Assembly: GCA_949840955.1 (NCBI GenBank)
Contig: CATKXV010000002.1
Span: forward strand, 62,001-126,000
Length of the DNA: 64,000 nt
Reading direction: 5' to 3'
Source: an uncultured Anaeroplasmataceae bacterium
Lineage (GTDB): Bacteria; Bacillota_I; Bacilli_A; Acholeplasmatales; Anaeroplasmataceae
Position 1 is the first letter of the stretch. Each line of letters begins with the position of its first letter. Below the pieces are notes generated by a model. It was not told the DNA's origin, made no database searches, and worked only from the letters and a program-made list of their open reading frames with translations. The position numbers and the translations under genes are program-made. Of this stretch, positions 13,666 through 19,658 are shown one piece after another.

Positions 13666-14769
13666 TTATATTCCATTAAAGTACCTTTGTATTTTTTGCA
13701 TTTTTTCTTGTTGCTTTACTTTAAACGGGCAACGTTGATCACAATGCCCACACTGTATACATGCATCAGCTTTCACATAAAGCTTATCGTAGTGATTTGC
13801 AGCCATTGTATCACCCGCAATTGAAAGATCATAGTATTTATTTATAATACCTATATCAATGCCTACAGGGCAAGGCTGACAATGATTGCAGTAAACACAG
13901 TTTCCTATCGCTGATTCGGGTGTAAATTCACCTATGGATGAATAGTCACGTTCTCCATATGAAGATTCTGGATATTTTAATAGTTCAACTAAATCGTTGA
14001 TATTTCTAACCCCTGGAACAACGGCAAGTACAGCAGGACGGTCAAGACAATATTGAATACATTGATTTTTCGAAAGTGCTTGCCGAAAGGGTGAAGTTTT
14101 TTCGGATAAAAGCTGCCCACCATGAAATGGCTTCATAACTGAGATTCCTACTCCTTCTGCTTCACAACGACGCATAAGCTCAGCACGTTCGTTAGTCGTG
14201 CCAATACCGTATTCATCTCCACACTCTAGATCGTATGCAGGATTGACGGAAAACATAAACATATCCATGATTCCTGTATCAAGCAGCTTATGAGCAACTC
14301 TTGGGGTATGGGAAGAAAAGCCGATATGGTGCACAATCCCCTTTGCTTTAAGCTCTTTGACATAATCAAGGATGCCGTTTTTAATAATATCGTCTAAATC
14401 GCTTTCCTCATCGATACAATGCAGAAAGCCAAAATCAACATAATCTGTTCCAAGCATTTCCATTTCCCATTCAAATGTATCCTTGATTTGCTTTAGGTTA
14501 CGTGACCAGCTGTATTCCCCATTAGGCTTATATACCGCACCAAAATGTAACTGAAAGTAAATTTTATCTCGCTGACCTTTGATTGCTCTTCCAAAGGGTT
14601 CATAAACACTTTTTCCTCCTGCACAAAGATCAAAAAAGTTTATTCCATTTGCAATAGCCTGTTCGATTACAGATTGTATTTCATCCTGTGAACAGTTCTG
14701 TATACCACCCATACCAAGTCCAAGGGTGCTTATTCTTTCACTACCCTGTGGTAATTTTCTATACTCCAT
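13666..14769 (-). CDS. Aldo/keto reductase fused to a two-[4Fe-4S] ferredoxin-like tail
   Basis: 367 residues. TIM-barrel aldo/keto reductase over about 1-275 (LGLGMGGI, INFFDLCAGG, VDFGFLHCID). The C-terminal region carries two cluster motifs: CVYCNHCQPCP near 293 and CIQCGHCDQRCP near 339. At the catalytic Lys position of classical enzymes (TKFG) this one reads QLHFG, so Lys appears replaced by His; I believe this is common in this Fe-S subfamily. It may couple reduction to ferredoxin or flavodoxin electrons instead of NADPH alone, which fits the flavodoxins in the same cluster. Substrate unknown. Confidence 0.85.
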   Translation of the reverse strand: MEYRKLPQGSERISTLGLGMGGIQNCSQDEIQSVIEQAIANGINFFDLCAGGKSVYEPFGRAIKGQRDKIYFQLHFGAVYKPNGEYSWSRNLKQIKDTFEWEMEMLGTDYVDFGFLHCIDEESDLDDIIKNGILDYVKELKAKGIVHHIGFSSHTPRVAHKLLDTGIMDMFMFSVNPAYDLECGDEYGIGTTNERAELMRRCEAEGVGISVMKPFHGGQLLSEKTSPFRQALSKNQCIQYCLDRPAVLAVVPGVRNINDLVELLKYPESSYGERDYSSIGEFTPESAIGNCVYCNHCQPCPVGIDIGIINKYYDLSIAGDTMAANHYDKLYVKADACIQCGHCDQRCPFKVKQQEKMQKIQRYFNGI

Positions 14770-14846: not shown

Positions 14847-15251
14847 TTACAAATTATTGTATACCTCATCTGTTACAGCTTCACACCACTCTGTATGTCC
14901 GTTTTCTGCGGGAACTTCTATGGCAAGATGCTGAAACCAACTATCCTTTGAGGCTCCATGCCAATGCTTTACGTTGGCAGGAATATGTACAATATCCCCT
15001 GCTTGTAAGGCACGAGGCTGTTTTCCCCATTCTTGATACCACCCTTTACCTGCGGTAATAAGAAGAAGCTGTCCTCCACCCTTCTCTGCATGATGAATAT
15101 GCCAATAATTACGGCATCCTGGCTCAAATGTAACATTGCCAATCACAACCTGCTCGGTTGAAAGCATATTCAGATAACTCTGACCAATAAAATATTTTTC
15201 AAATGCTTTGTTCTTTTCTCCTACAGAAAACATACTTAGATTTTTATTCAT
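14847..15251 (-). CDS. Small cupin-domain protein
   Basis: 134 residues, one cupin barrel. Metal-binding motif 1 reads YWHIHHAEKGGGQLLLITAG (His, His and Glu ligands) and motif 2 reads GDIVHIPANVKHWHG. Small cupins of this kind occur next to flavodoxin and aldo/keto reductase genes in many Bacillota; they may be dioxygenases, isomerases or sensors. GGAGTAAGAA precedes the ATG. An imperfect inverted repeat lies 34-65 bases upstream. No specific function can be given. Confidence 0.8.
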   Translation of the reverse strand: MNKNLSMFSVGEKNKAFEKYFIGQSYLNMLSTEQVVIGNVTFEPGCRNYWHIHHAEKGGGQLLLITAGKGWYQEWGKQPRALQAGDIVHIPANVKHWHGASKDSWFQHLAIEVPAENGHTEWCEAVTDEVYNNL

Positions 15252-15400: not shown

Positions 15401-17179
15401 CTATTTCATAAAGCCATTGGCTCTTAAATAATTTTCAAGTGCGGATATGTTACTTGCAGCAGCATATAATCCATCATGAACCGTTGCTCCTTTTGCACTA
15501 TCACGTACAAACGCCATAGAATTATCATAATAAGATTGTGTGCTGTTGCTTGCTCCTTGGAAGAAGGGATATATATCCATTTCTGCCGACCAAGTGTAAT
15601 GCTCTAGGAATGTACCTATAATCATAGGAGCCGTGTGCCACCAAATCGGAAAGCCTACAAACACAGTGTCATACTTGCTTATATCTATTTTATCATAGGT
15701 TGTTAAAGCAACTTCAGGACGTGCATTTGTATCCGCTTCTTCCTTTGCTCTACCATAGGCGATATCGTTGTAGCTTCCTGTATACGGAATTGCCGCTTCT
15801 ATCTCAACAACATCTCCTCCTGTAATTCTTTCGATGCTCCTTGCCACCGTACTGGTATTTCCCGACCAAGAGAAATAAACAATTAAAATGTGCTTCGCTT
15901 CTTCCCCATCACCATTATCTGGGGTGCTTGGAGCTGTCTGTTCAGGTTTCACAAAGCTGATACCCAATCCAGTTACCCAAGTTACAATTTGCTGTTCTGC
16001 CTCTTGAATATTGTTTCGTGAAATCGATAATCCTTCTCTAACATTTGCATTAGGCTCTATCCTTCGAATCGTAGATATTGTACTAGAAAAGCCACTTCCA
16101 CCATGTGTATTAAACGGAATAATGGTTTTACCAGAAAAATCATAGATATCAAAAAATGTATATAAAATCATCGGCATATCACCCCACCAGTTTGGATAAC
16201 CTATAAATATAGTTTCATACTCGGATAAGTTTTTTATGGTATCCTGAATTGTAGGACGCGCATTTTGAGCCTTTTCTTCACTTGCAAGATCTACAAGTGT
16301 TCTATGGTCTGTAGGATATGGAACTTCAGGTATTATACGAAAAATATCTGCGCCTGACGTATCCTGTATAACATATGCCATATACTGTGTATTCCCAAGG
16401 ACAATACCATCAATAATTACAGTGCTGTTTGCCTCTTCGGTAGTCATATTATTCGGATCAGTCGTTTCAGGCATAGAGAAATAAACCACAAGCGTATTGG
16501 TATTCTCCTTACCTGGTCTGTCATCCTGTGCTGGAGAAAATGCCTCTGATTTTTCAGTTAAATCAAGACTGTTGATCCAAGCTTCAATTGCCTGGTCCGA
16601 ATCACTAGAAAATTTCCTTCCCTCTATAACGGTTGCTCCCTTTGCATTAGAAAGAATATCTGCTGTACTTTCAGAAATTGCACTTCCGCCACTTGTACAG
16701 AAGGTGTAAATCGTTTTGCCATTGAAATCATAATAGTTCAAAAACGATAATACTGCCATAGGTGCAGTATGCCACCAAATCGGAAAGCCGAGAAAAATCG
16801 TATCATATTGCGCCATTACCTCATCTGGTAAATAAACAGAAAGCTCAGGGCGTTCATTTTCTTCCTTCTCTTCCTTTGCCACCTCTGTTGTAGTCGTATA
16901 ATCCGTGGGGTATGATTCTTTCCGCTCTATCTTGAATAGATTTGCATTGGTTAATTCTTGTATTTTTTCTGCTACACTTTTGGTTGTATTTGTCTTAGAA
17001 AAATATGCAACAAGTGTATTGCTTGTCGGTACAAAGGATTCATCCAGAGTTACATTTGATGGACGAATATAATTATTGGATGGGGGATTTAATCCACCTT
17101 CATTCTCATTACAAGCGACGATAAAAAACAAAAGCATAAAACAAAAGCTTGTTGCAATTATAGAAAATACCTTTTTCAT
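15401..17179 (-). CDS. Lipoprotein with three tandem flavodoxin domains
   Basis: 592 residues. Lipoprotein signal peptide with lipobox FIVAC near residue 22, then three flavodoxin-like domains starting near 56 (TLVAYFSKTNTTKSVAEKI), 229 (TLVVYFSMPETT) and 431 (ILIVYFSWSGNTSTVARSI). Each repeats the later signature (IFLGFPIWWHTAPM, IFIGYPNWWGDMPM, VFVGFPIWWHTAPM) and a glycine-rich FMN loop. In domain 2 the FMN phosphate loop is interrupted by about 25 residues before GNTQ. Anchored outside the membrane, it could carry FMN electrons extracellularly. 12 bases after the aldo/keto reductase stop, AAGGAGT before the ATG. Most flavodoxin family members are cytoplasmic single domains. Confidence 0.88.
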   Translation of the reverse strand: MKKVFSIIATSFCFMLLFFIVACNENEGGLNPPSNNYIRPSNVTLDESFVPTSNTLVAYFSKTNTTKSVAEKIQELTNANLFKIERKESYPTDYTTTTEVAKEEKEENERPELSVYLPDEVMAQYDTIFLGFPIWWHTAPMAVLSFLNYYDFNGKTIYTFCTSGGSAISESTADILSNAKGATVIEGRKFSSDSDQAIEAWINSLDLTEKSEAFSPAQDDRPGKENTNTLVVYFSMPETTDPNNMTTEEANSTVIIDGIVLGNTQYMAYVIQDTSGADIFRIIPEVPYPTDHRTLVDLASEEKAQNARPTIQDTIKNLSEYETIFIGYPNWWGDMPMILYTFFDIYDFSGKTIIPFNTHGGSGFSSTISTIRRIEPNANVREGLSISRNNIQEAEQQIVTWVTGLGISFVKPEQTAPSTPDNGDGEEAKHILIVYFSWSGNTSTVARSIERITGGDVVEIEAAIPYTGSYNDIAYGRAKEEADTNARPEVALTTYDKIDISKYDTVFVGFPIWWHTAPMIIGTFLEHYTWSAEMDIYPFFQGASNSTQSYYDNSMAFVRDSAKGATVHDGLYAAASNISALENYLRANGFMK

Positions 17180-17191
17180 GATTTTGACTCC

Positions 17192-18079
17192 TTACCAATT
17201 TTTCTTTTCTTTTTTGTGATCCTTGTTATTTTTGCGTTCCTCGACCATTTTCACAAACCATTCCACCATATTTGGATCAGTATGAGAGAAAAAGGAACTT
17301 TGCTTTTTATCAAGGCTTGCGATGACAGACATATCATCATCAGAAAGTTCAAAATCAAACACATCAAAATTTTCTTGCATTCTTTCGATATGTACAGATT
17401 TGGGAATAACTACGATTCCGCGTTGTAACTCCCAACGCAGTATAACCTGTGCTACCGTCTTATTATATTTCTTTCCGATTGCTGCAATCGTTTCATTCGT
17501 AAATAATCCACCCCTACCTTCACCAAATGGAGCCCAAGCCTCCATGTGCACATCATATTTTTTCATCCACTTCTGTGCTTCTGTTTGTTGATTGTGTGGA
17601 TGTGCTTCTACCTGATTTACCATTGGCTTAATTTTTGCAAAGCTGCAAAGATCAACCATTCTGTCAGGATAAAAATTGGATATGCCAATTGCCTTGAGCT
17701 TTCCATCCTTATATAGTTCTTCCAAAGCACGCCAAGCTCCATAATAATCGGAAAATGGCTGATGCAGCAACATTAGGTCAATATAATCTGTTTTAAGCTT
17801 TCGTAATGATTCATAAACAGATTTCTTAGTTTCCTCATATCCGTAGTGCTCTATCCAAACCTTACTTGTCAAGAAAATCTCTTCACGAGGAATTCCCGAT
17901 TTTGCGATAGCATTTCCTACTTCTTCCTCATTAAAATAGCTTTGTGCCGTATCAATATGACGATATCCTACGTTAAGAGCATTTAGAACACAATGCTCAC
18001 ACTCATCCTTGGATATCTGATATACTCCATATCCAAGTTGGGGCATCCTTACCCCATTTGATAAAATAACATAATACAT
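17192..18079 (-). CDS. Aldo/keto reductase (2,5-diketogluconate reductase-like)
   Basis: 295 residues. Classical tetrad: Asp and Tyr in HIDTAQSYFNEEEVG, Lys in LTSKVW, His in LMLLHQPF. NADPH site near PKSVHIERMQENF. The C-terminus is Lys/Asn-rich (NNKDHKKEKKNW). Cytoplasmic NADPH-dependent carbonyl reductase by family. Second gene of the LysR-linked operon, 20 bases after the flavodoxin gene, AAGGAG before its ATG. The combination of LysR regulator, flavodoxin and such a reductase recalls aldehyde-response loci, but the inducer is unknown. Confidence 0.88.
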   Translation of the reverse strand: MYYVILSNGVRMPQLGYGVYQISKDECEHCVLNALNVGYRHIDTAQSYFNEEEVGNAIAKSGIPREEIFLTSKVWIEHYGYEETKKSVYESLRKLKTDYIDLMLLHQPFSDYYGAWRALEELYKDGKLKAIGISNFYPDRMVDLCSFAKIKPMVNQVEAHPHNQQTEAQKWMKKYDVHMEAWAPFGEGRGGLFTNETIAAIGKKYNKTVAQVILRWELQRGIVVIPKSVHIERMQENFDVFDFELSDDDMSVIASLDKKQSSFFSHTDPNMVEWFVKMVEERKNNKDHKKEKKNW

Positions 18080-18099: not shown

Positions 18100-18618
18100 T
18101 TATTTATTGATTATCTTCTTTGCCCAATTTACAACCATACTTTCAGATTGAGCTGCTTCCGCTCCATGAATAGGTAGCCCTTTGCAAATATCTGCCCCCA
18201 CACATATCCTTTGTAAGTCACGCTCACTACTACCCATTCCACTACCCTCATGTGTGCAGAATGGCATGATTTTTTTACCTTCTAAATTGAATTTTTCCAA
18301 AAGTGTAACCATTGCCATAGGCATCGTTCCCCACCAATTTGGAAAACCCACGAATAATACATCGTAGCTTTCTAGGTTTTCGGGATATGCTTGAATTTCT
18401 GGACGTGCGTCAGCCCGAAGTTCTTTCTGTGCTTCATCTATACAAGTGTAGTAATCCTTAGCATAAGGATTTACCGTTTTCACCTCAAATAAATCGCCTC
18501 CTACAGCTTTTTGAATAAACTCAGCTACAATTTCTGTATTTCCCTTTTTCAAATCTTTAATACTCCCATTCCAATAGTTCTGCCCTTTTCTCGAATAGTA
18601 ACAAATTAAATTCGACAT
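18100..18618 (-). CDS. Flavodoxin family protein
   Basis: 172 residues, no signal peptide. A single flavodoxin fold: ICYYSRKGQNY, then an insertion, GNTEIVAEFI (phosphate loop), VLFVGFPNWWGTMPMAM and FCTHEGSGMGSSERDLQ. The N-terminal FMN loop is split by an insertion as in domain 2 of the lipoprotein at 15401-17179, to which it is clearly related. First gene after a promoter with a LysR-type box; AAAGGAGG before the ATG. Likely an FMN electron carrier or quinone/aldehyde-response protein. Confidence 0.87.
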   Translation of the reverse strand: MSNLICYYSRKGQNYWNGSIKDLKKGNTEIVAEFIQKAVGGDLFEVKTVNPYAKDYYTCIDEAQKELRADARPEIQAYPENLESYDVLFVGFPNWWGTMPMAMVTLLEKFNLEGKKIMPFCTHEGSGMGSSERDLQRICVGADICKGLPIHGAEAAQSESMVVNWAKKIINK

Positions 18619-18710: not shown

Positions 18711-18742
18711 AAAAAAAGACGTTCTCTATGAAAACGTCTGTA
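18711..18742 (-). terminator. Intrinsic terminator of the LysR gene
   Basis: Minus-strand stem AGACGTT / AACGTCT, followed by a run of seven T. It lies just after the LysR stop at 18747 and separates the regulator transcript from the flavodoxin operon. Confidence 0.8.
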
Positions 18743-18746
18743 GCAT

Positions 18747-19631
18747 TTATTCAGTAAATTTTTTTCGCAATATGCCAGCAAATTCTTCTATGTAGTAATT
18801 TGAACTTGCTTTTTTCCAAAAAGCACAATATGTTCTTACTATCGGAACGTTATCTGCTCGTCGAACTTCTTTTCTTACCAGTGGATCCCCTACTTTATTC
18901 TTAACGCTTTCCACCAAAAGATACCCCCTCCCACTCATTGCCATAAGTCTAGCATCGTCTAAGCTTTCAACAAACAAAAATTGCTTACCAATACCAAGTG
19001 TATTCTCGTAAAAGTCCTGTTCAATACTCTCTCTGTTTTTAGTAGCTACTAAAATACAGGGATATTTATCAAGCTCCGTAGTCGTAACGACTTCCCTTTT
19101 TGCAATAGGATGTGTTGCAGAAACGTCAATATAAGCAGGGCATTGATTCAGTATATAATTTTCATATTCGTCTGAAAAAGCACGACGTTGGTCATTAAGT
19201 ACAATGTGTACTTTTTTATCTTTCAATGCATGGTATAAATCCTCATGTGTGCCTTTAAAAAAGGTAACCACCACTTCAGGATATTTTTTTGAAAATTCCG
19301 TTATGGCTTGTGGTAGCTCAGTCCCATCATAGCTAGCAAGATATCCAATATTCAAATGCAATTCATCATCTGAGCCAATACGAGTTGTTTCATTTTTCAT
19401 ATTGTCAATATCGTGCATAATAGCTTTACTGCGTTTATAAAAATATTCTCCCGCAGGGGTAAGAATAAACTTACGCCCATCTCGTTTCGTCAGTTTTACT
19501 TCAAGCTCTTCCTCAAGTGCAGCTATTTGCTGGGATATAGCGGATTGTGAAATAAAACATACTTCCGCCGCTTCAGTAAAACTATTCGTTTCTACTATGG
19601 CTAAAAAATATTTGATTTGCCGCAAAAGCAT
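18747..19631 (-). CDS. LysR-family transcriptional regulator
   Basis: 294 residues from ATG 19631, seven bases after GGAGGTG; the open frame upstream to 19652 lacks a ribosome binding site. N-terminal winged helix-turn-helix (LLRQIKYFLAIVETNSFTEAA, SQSAISQQIAALEEELEVKL), then a periplasmic-binding-like effector domain (about 90-290). It is co-directional with, not divergent from, its presumed target operon, from which it is separated by a terminator and the palindromic box. Family regulators sense small molecules; here probably a carbonyl or quinone stress signal, by analogy only. Confidence 0.9.
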   Translation of the reverse strand: MLLRQIKYFLAIVETNSFTEAAEVCFISQSAISQQIAALEEELEVKLTKRDGRKFILTPAGEYFYKRSKAIMHDIDNMKNETTRIGSDDELHLNIGYLASYDGTELPQAITEFSKKYPEVVVTFFKGTHEDLYHALKDKKVHIVLNDQRRAFSDEYENYILNQCPAYIDVSATHPIAKREVVTTTELDKYPCILVATKNRESIEQDFYENTLGIGKQFLFVESLDDARLMAMSGRGYLLVESVKNKVGDPLVRKEVRRADNVPIVRTYCAFWKKASSNYYIEEFAGILRKKFTE

Positions 19632-19658
19632 ATTCACACCTCCGTAAAACATAATTTG

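Follow-up and report, generated by a model that had tools for sequence, protein, structure and literature searches.

A predicted extracytosolic lipoprotein combining three flavodoxin domains of separate lineage, one with a diverged flavinylation loop

In the Flavodoxin_4 family, ApbE flavinylates members that have a loop inserted after strand 1 and before helix 1; the flavin is attached within this loop, at an [S/T]GA[S/T]-like motif, as shown in the available part of a 2024 report (PMC11334425). The rationale offered in that part is that extracytosolic flavodoxins are flavinylated so that the flavin is not lost outside the cell. It also shows that a DUF4405 protein binds haem b, and describes apbE–DUF4405 clusters as often containing a flavinylated Flavodoxin_4 protein. 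The archaeal "extracellular flavodoxin-like domain" of PMC5898192 is, in the accessible portion of that paper, a GldG-like fold assignment and not Flavodoxin_4. Exported Flavodoxin_4 relatives are already known; a three-part mix with an apparently altered covalent-flavin domain is unusual, and in the open-access literature, as far as its text is accessible, we found no exported bacterial protein named as carrying several flavodoxin domains. Here we describe such a candidate, encoded in the window (the whole 64,000-nucleotide stretch that was analysed, C2:62001-126000), and compare it with domains from 78 related loci.

The triple-lipoprotein gene (Table 1) starts with ATG, and the GGAG ending 8 bases upstream is its ribosome-binding site. 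Read from the sequence, the protein begins with MKKVFSIIATSFCFMLLFFIVAC, the next residue being N; by eye, the N-terminus shows a short basic n-region, a hydrophobic stretch and an IVAC lipobox that ends in Cys23. A Pfam scan places PF12682 on three stretches of the protein (whole-protein E 4.8e-82). Scanned singly, the domains return E values of 1.4e-30 (D1), 3.2e-28 (D2) and 1.4e-24 (D3), and when cut apart they score 106.2, 98.6 and 86.8 bits, so far over the cut-off of 24 that a chance match is not an issue. The same type of scan gave no match to an FMN_bind domain in the protein at E 0.001. The original prediction of three flavodoxin domains in one exported lipoprotein is therefore upheld by the PF12682 matches, the lipobox and the models, that is, at the level of sequence and structure prediction.

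Table 1. Features of the triple-lipoprotein gene and its neighbours (positions are those of the window).
Feature	Position	Strand	Basis and remarks
Triple Flavodoxin_4 lipoprotein	15401..17179	(-)	592 aa; ORF call, Pfam, AlphaFold2
Signal peptide, residues 1-23, lipobox IVAC, lipidated Cys23 (predicted)	17111..17179	(-)	Sequence reading
Domain D1, residues 55-204, plain Flavodoxin_4	16568..17017	(-)	Pfam, alignment
Domain D2, residues about 226-408, Flavodoxin_4 with strand 1/helix 1 insertion	15956..16504	(-)	Profiles, AlphaFold
D2 insertion, residues 236-261	16397..16474	(-)	Ser252 codon 16424-16426; alignments
Domain D3, residues 429-587, Flavodoxin_4, alternative third loop FFQGAS	15419..15895	(-)	Pfam, fold match, alignment
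LysR-type regulator, upstream of the cluster	18747..19652	(-)	Pfam
Flavodoxin_4, no signal; insertion of another kind (SRKGQNYWNG), no serine motif	18100..18618	(-)	Pfam, alignment
Aldo/keto reductase, ordinary, no signal; 12 bases upstream of the triple gene	17192..18079	(-)	Pfam
Cupin protein	14847..15251	(-)	Resembles (R)-mandelonitrile lyase, below its cut-off
Aldo/keto reductase with C-terminal 4Fe-4S domain, no signal	13666..14769	(-)	Pfam

AlphaFold2 modelled the full protein from an alignment of 37 proteins with a mean pLDDT of 86.8, and segments of at least three residues below pLDDT 50 occur only at residues 23-28, 209-218 and 411-423, after the signal peptide and in the two linkers. 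The pTM of 0.44 implies that the arrangement of D1, D2 and D3 is not fixed; as modelled, the protein consists of three rigid units joined by loose linkers. The best VIA-align matches of the full model all fall on D3 (4ICI, Z 20.8; 4J8P, Z 20.5; 3KLB, Z 20.1), which aligns with the FMN complex 3KLB over 154 residues at an rmsd of 2.3. Modelled alone from 73 sequences, D2 reached a pLDDT of 92.9 and a pTM of 0.90 and matched the same three structures (Z 20.9, 20.5 and 20.3, respectively), again with 154 residues aligned to 3KLB (rmsd 2.4). D1 has a sequence match to 4J8P. Only D2 passes the PRK06934 model (NF005389, cut-off 172 bits), alone scoring 197.2; D1 (105.8) and D3 (63) fall short.

In flavodoxins, FMN is held by three loops: the phosphate loop, a P-x-W-W loop and a third loop. 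We read these loops in an alignment of 207 Flavodoxin_4 domains. The phosphate loop and P-x-W-W are present in all three domains of the triple protein, and D1 and D2 additionally carry TSGGS and THGGS, respectively; in full, D1 reads YFSKTNTT, FPIWW and CTSGGS, and D2 reads YFS...GNT (the phosphate loop being split by the insertion), YPNWW and NTHGGS. D3 has YFSWSGNT and FPIWW, with FFQGASNST as its third loop in place of TSGGS. This Q-[GS]-A-S form recurs in 14 other domains of the alignment, from L009 (twice), L026, L040, L041, L052, L073 (twice), L074, L076, L077, L078, L081 and L085. Since the altered loop is shared in this way, we rejected the idea of a decayed D3 and regard the domain as a variant. 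Three FMN sites, as first proposed, are thus plausible from the loop sequences: D1 and D2 have all three loops, and D3 keeps the first two and departs from expectation in the third, in a way shared by its kin.

D2 differs from D1 and D3 in bearing an insertion, and this insertion sits at the strand 1/helix 1 place where canonical relatives are flavinylated. The model shows this loop as ordered (pLDDT block means 90-92), and Ser252 aligns with the flavinylation-motif Ser of those relatives, the D2 motif having diverged to EEANST; an [S/T]GA[S/T]-like motif is absent from the insertion, which reads EANS there. On this motif we rejected canonical flavinylation for D1, D2 and D3 alike. An upstream Asp also forms part of the flavinylation motif. 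A domain counted as canonical if position −6 was Asp or Asn and position −1 was Ala or Thr (in most cases D....[SG]AS), a definition looser than the published [S/T]GA[S/T]; one Enterococcus florum domain (L067) was classed as non-canonical by alignment column, and L059 was counted in the canonical set by hand, its canonical domain being cut and lying outside the alignment. The 207 aligned domains then divide into 109 without an insertion, 54 with a diverged, D2-type loop, 35 with the canonical motif and 9 with another insertion. Canonical domains have Asp at −6 in 34 of 35 cases, Ala at −1 in 34 and Ser in all 35. Every one of the 54 D2-type domains keeps the motif Ser, with Asn, Gln or Asp at −1 and never Ala; at −6 they have Thr, Ser or Asn in 47 rows and never Asp, the other 7 rows having a shorter loop and a gap. 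The Ser is also one of 11 invariant columns in a second alignment, A3 (73/73 rows). By the simple hydrophobicity rule that we used for export calls across domains, 47 of 53 D2-type and 103 of 128 other non-canonical domains, a set slightly different from the 207, are predicted to be exported.

To place the three domains, we built a tree of 120 domains with the insertion columns left out. D1 groups with L018 and L040 (99, starred) and D3 with L076 (99, starred), in separate starred clades, and D2 has its place among the domains with an insertion. Tandem duplication, with D1, D2 and D3 as one clade, was rejected (AU p 1.88e-8). Because the three domains lie apart in the tree, the triple protein is best read, on these alignments, as three old paralogs that became fused. 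A single clade of D2-type and canonical domains was not rejected (AU p 0.66); in the free tree the two types are not cleanly parted, and one canonical domain (L027) sits inside the D2 type.

How unusual is this architecture? Among 60 genomes (the own genome and 59 relatives), a match along the whole triple protein was found in the own genome only. The earlier description of the architecture as unusual is partly right: three flavodoxin domains in one frame occur in 7 of the 78 related loci (L009, L064, L068, L075, L080, L082 and L084), five of them with three complete domains, the third domain being cut in L075 and L080, and one of the complete triples, L009, has the window's domain types and order (plain-D2-plain). 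The four Ruminococcus triples (L064, L068, L082 and L084) are canonical-plain-canonical, with the motif in domains 1 and 3; apbE adjoins two of them, L064 and L068. The same domain types are distributed differently in L040, where D2 stands as a lipoprotein by itself and a second lipoprotein has BspA-type leucine-rich repeats (PF13306, E 3.6e-28) between domains of the D1 and D3 types; a same-genus genome (G005) has two 1,300-base stretches identical to L040. Flavodoxin domains flank or follow BspA-type repeats in the lipoproteins L040:8215-10059, L041:4996-6981 and L052:6688-8007, the repeats having been Pfam-scanned in L040 and L041 and recognised by similarity in L052. Close kin thus appear, as judged from sequence, to keep export signals and to add surface-type repeats.

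The serine of D2 invites an alternative, that D2 is covalently flavinylated on Ser252 by an ApbE of its own genome, which would give the protein one fixed and two exchangeable flavins. Its retention throughout the D2-type and canonical domains, the ordered loop and the compatibility of the two types with one clade agree with this idea, as does the presence of two ApbE matches in the own genome, at C9:48515-49324 (L117) and, more weakly, at C2:276174-276938 (L118). Both matches lie outside the window, which itself contains no apbE. The weaker match belongs to a second ApbE-like lipoprotein, at L118:1315-2349 (C2; 62 bits), which adjoins an apparent glycosyltransferase gene recognised by eye. 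The own genome also encodes an exported Flavodoxin_4 paralog with the motif DAEASAS, fused to a cyclophilin-like domain (L008:13396-14436, C1), which, going by that motif, the cell's ApbE is likely to act on.

Against a covalent D2 stand the lack of Asp at −6 and of Ala at −1 in its type and the distribution of apbE. An apbE-like gene lies beside 5 of 21 canonical loci vs 0 of 45 loci with the D2 type and no canonical domain (Fisher p 0.0023, relatedness ignored); three of the five are from Ruminococcus, so that the loci are not independent, and as 39 of the 78 related loci are shorter than 12 kb, many being ended by contig ends, absent-neighbour counts are lower bounds. In one of the five, L051, a D2-type domain stands beside a canonical one. 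Anywhere in the genome, apbE was matched in 19 of 21 canonical vs 33 of 45 D2-only cases, so that mere presence fails to tell the two classes apart (Fisher p 0.19 and 0.12, on almost identical counts) and co-location alone does so. The 12 of 45 D2-only genomes without an apbE match include Enterococcus alishanensis ALS3 (3.7 Mb); among the remainder are many MAGs, which may lack part of the genome. Given the diverged motif, the absence of an adjacent apbE and these 12 genomes, D2 probably holds FMN non-covalently, in a loop shared with the flavinylated kind, or has it attached by a non-standard rule; we consider covalent attachment to Ser252 by an ApbE of the cell unlikely.

On the minus strand, the gene order is LysR regulator, signal-less flavodoxin, aldo/keto reductase, triple lipoprotein, cupin, 4Fe-4S aldo/keto reductase, acetyltransferase and short-chain dehydrogenase. 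The reductase next to the triple gene resembles the 2,5-didehydrogluconate reductase DkgA, below that model's cut-off. A hairpin of 10 pairs followed by a T run, terminator-like, lies just after the LysR gene (18717-18739, minus strand) and would, if it acts as such, part LysR from the flavodoxin–reductase–lipoprotein unit; terminator-like sites in the region number 7 vs 4.5 expected (sd 2.5), which is near chance, and promoter-like sites occur at the chance rate (28 vs 29.2 expected). The flavodoxin and the 4Fe-4S aldo/keto reductase named in the original prediction are indeed in the cluster, and neither has an N-terminal export signal. The electron transfer between cytoplasm and surface that it drew from them is not supported: the Pfam scan of the eight cluster proteins recognised no transmembrane redox family, and the own genome has 0 matches to DUF4405. 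A DUF4405 cytochrome as membrane partner of the triple protein was rejected on the same count. Our search of the own genome for flavin-linked membrane systems covered ApbE, FMN_bind and DUF4405. By eye, this genome also shows an Rnf-like operon; its FMN_bind subunit, which carries the sequence DVTAGAT, is borderline (22.6 vs a cut-off of 22 in one search, 21.3 in another), and the operon is a candidate electron donor for the triple protein. A wall-less cell was considered, since a same-genus MAG is assigned to Anaeroplasmataceae (Mollicutes); six Mur-ligase middle-domain matches, some of them maybe folate enzymes, argue against it.

Among the 78 related loci, aldo/keto reductases occur in 50, LysR regulators in 32 and DUF4405-like proteins in 18; from these neighbourhoods the LysR–reductase–flavodoxin grouping appears to recur, in families that are common in general. 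It is these counts that lend some weight to a narrower form of our preferred explanation (below), with which it overlaps: an exported reductase of small molecules (a quinone, an aldehyde or another electrophile), with the signal-less reductases and flavodoxin acting inside the cell under LysR control. In its favour, too, is a 607-aa lipoprotein of the own genome in which Flavodoxin_4, a cyclophilin-like domain and an aldo/keto reductase are joined (L008:3571-5394, C1), together with flavodoxin–reductase lipoproteins in four same-genus loci (L092, L094, L096 and L110). Fused reductases of this type keep Asp, Tyr, Lys and His, which we take to be the aldo/keto reductase active site. In the window's own aldo/keto reductase, IPKS..R is presumably the NADP-binding stretch; it reads IPGS..H in all five fused reductases, and since the pattern is missing in 53 of 95 other reductases, these are a poor control. 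That both aldo/keto reductases and LysR regulators are common families weakens the argument from neighbours, and we hold this narrower form as possible but doubtful. The adjacent aldo/keto reductase having no signal, the operon may instead serve a cytosolic pathway, with the exported protein linked to it only through regulation.

The reading that we favour, with modest confidence, is that of a lipid-anchored extracytosolic protein whose three FMN flavodoxin modules on tethers form a multi-centre electron relay or reductase. The lipid would fix the protein to the outside of the cell membrane; each module would take up FMN, be reduced by a donor that is either soluble or in the membrane, and pass the electrons on to small acceptors or partner proteins. 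Computation supports the export signal, the three folds, the FMN-site loops and the grouping of D2 with motif-bearing domains. The FMN would be bound mainly non-covalently, D1 and D3 being without the loop and D2 without the motif, and electrons would flow through it. The risk that non-covalent FMN is lost outside the cell, which is the reason for flavinylation given in the available part of PMC11334425, counts against such a relay, and among the neighbours of the triple gene we recognised neither an electron donor nor an acceptor. The surface electron wire of the original prediction is possible, and PMC11334425, in the part available, makes the same comparison for multi-FMN_bind proteins; the AlphaFold model gives the modules no fixed spacing.

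Exported domains, as predicted, on flexible linkers, with no redox partner recognised in the cluster, would also suit a flavin scavenger or buffer, in which the modules capture extracellular FMN or riboflavin and have no electron-transfer role. Kin near DUF4405-like cytochromes (18 of 78 loci) fit redox use, as do canonical kin that are flavinylated according to the accessible text of PMC11334425, and we regard pure scavenging as improbable. A bolder extension of the relay is that extracytosolic flavin carriers include a second class, the D2-type domains, whose loop Ser holds FMN without the ApbE motif, either non-covalently through a remodelled phosphate loop or through an unrecognised attachment rule, and which, strung together with two further lineages, would make a multi-flavin surface relay of flavodoxins rather than of cytochromes or FMN_bind domains; we offer it as speculation with a small chance of being right. 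Many Flavodoxin_4 domains look exported yet lack the flavinylation motif, whose 2024 rationale, in the part of PMC11334425 available, is flavin retention outside the cell. Two questions follow: by what means exported domains without the motif retain FMN, and whether electrons could travel along a cell surface through strings of such domains.

Taken together, the locus can be set against several known systems. With the ApbE-flavinylated Flavodoxin_4 proteins of Anaerocolumna xylanovorans and Desulfosporosinus lacus, as presented in the available part of PMC11334425 (mSystems 2024), the triple protein shares the fold and predicted export, and through D2 only the strand 1/helix 1 loop with its conserved Ser. 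Unlike them, it has three domains, with D1 and D3 loopless and D2 without the motif, in a window without apbE and a genome without a DUF4405 match. NCBIfam PRK06934, the profile that D2 satisfies, is a single-domain model of 221 positions. The Bacteroides flavoproteins 3KLB (an FMN complex), 4ICI and 4J8P resemble D2 and D3 in fold (Z about 20) and also show sequence similarity; they differ in being single unfused domains of 156-162 residues, and 3KLB, according to the same part of PMC11334425, has no insertion where D2 has one. Three flavodoxin domains in one protein are also found in the algal oxidoreductase Vocar.0018s0107, which, as far as the accessible text of PMC10617192 describes it, differs in being eukaryotic, of PF00258 and fused to a reductase with an FAD domain. 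In general plan, a likeness is seen to the multi-flavinylated FMN_bind proteins of PMC11334425, which share the "multiheme-like" idea of several extracytosolic flavin domains arranged as beads on a string with little contact; the triple protein departs from these in its flavodoxin fold, in having no covalent motif and in drawing its beads from three mixed lineages.
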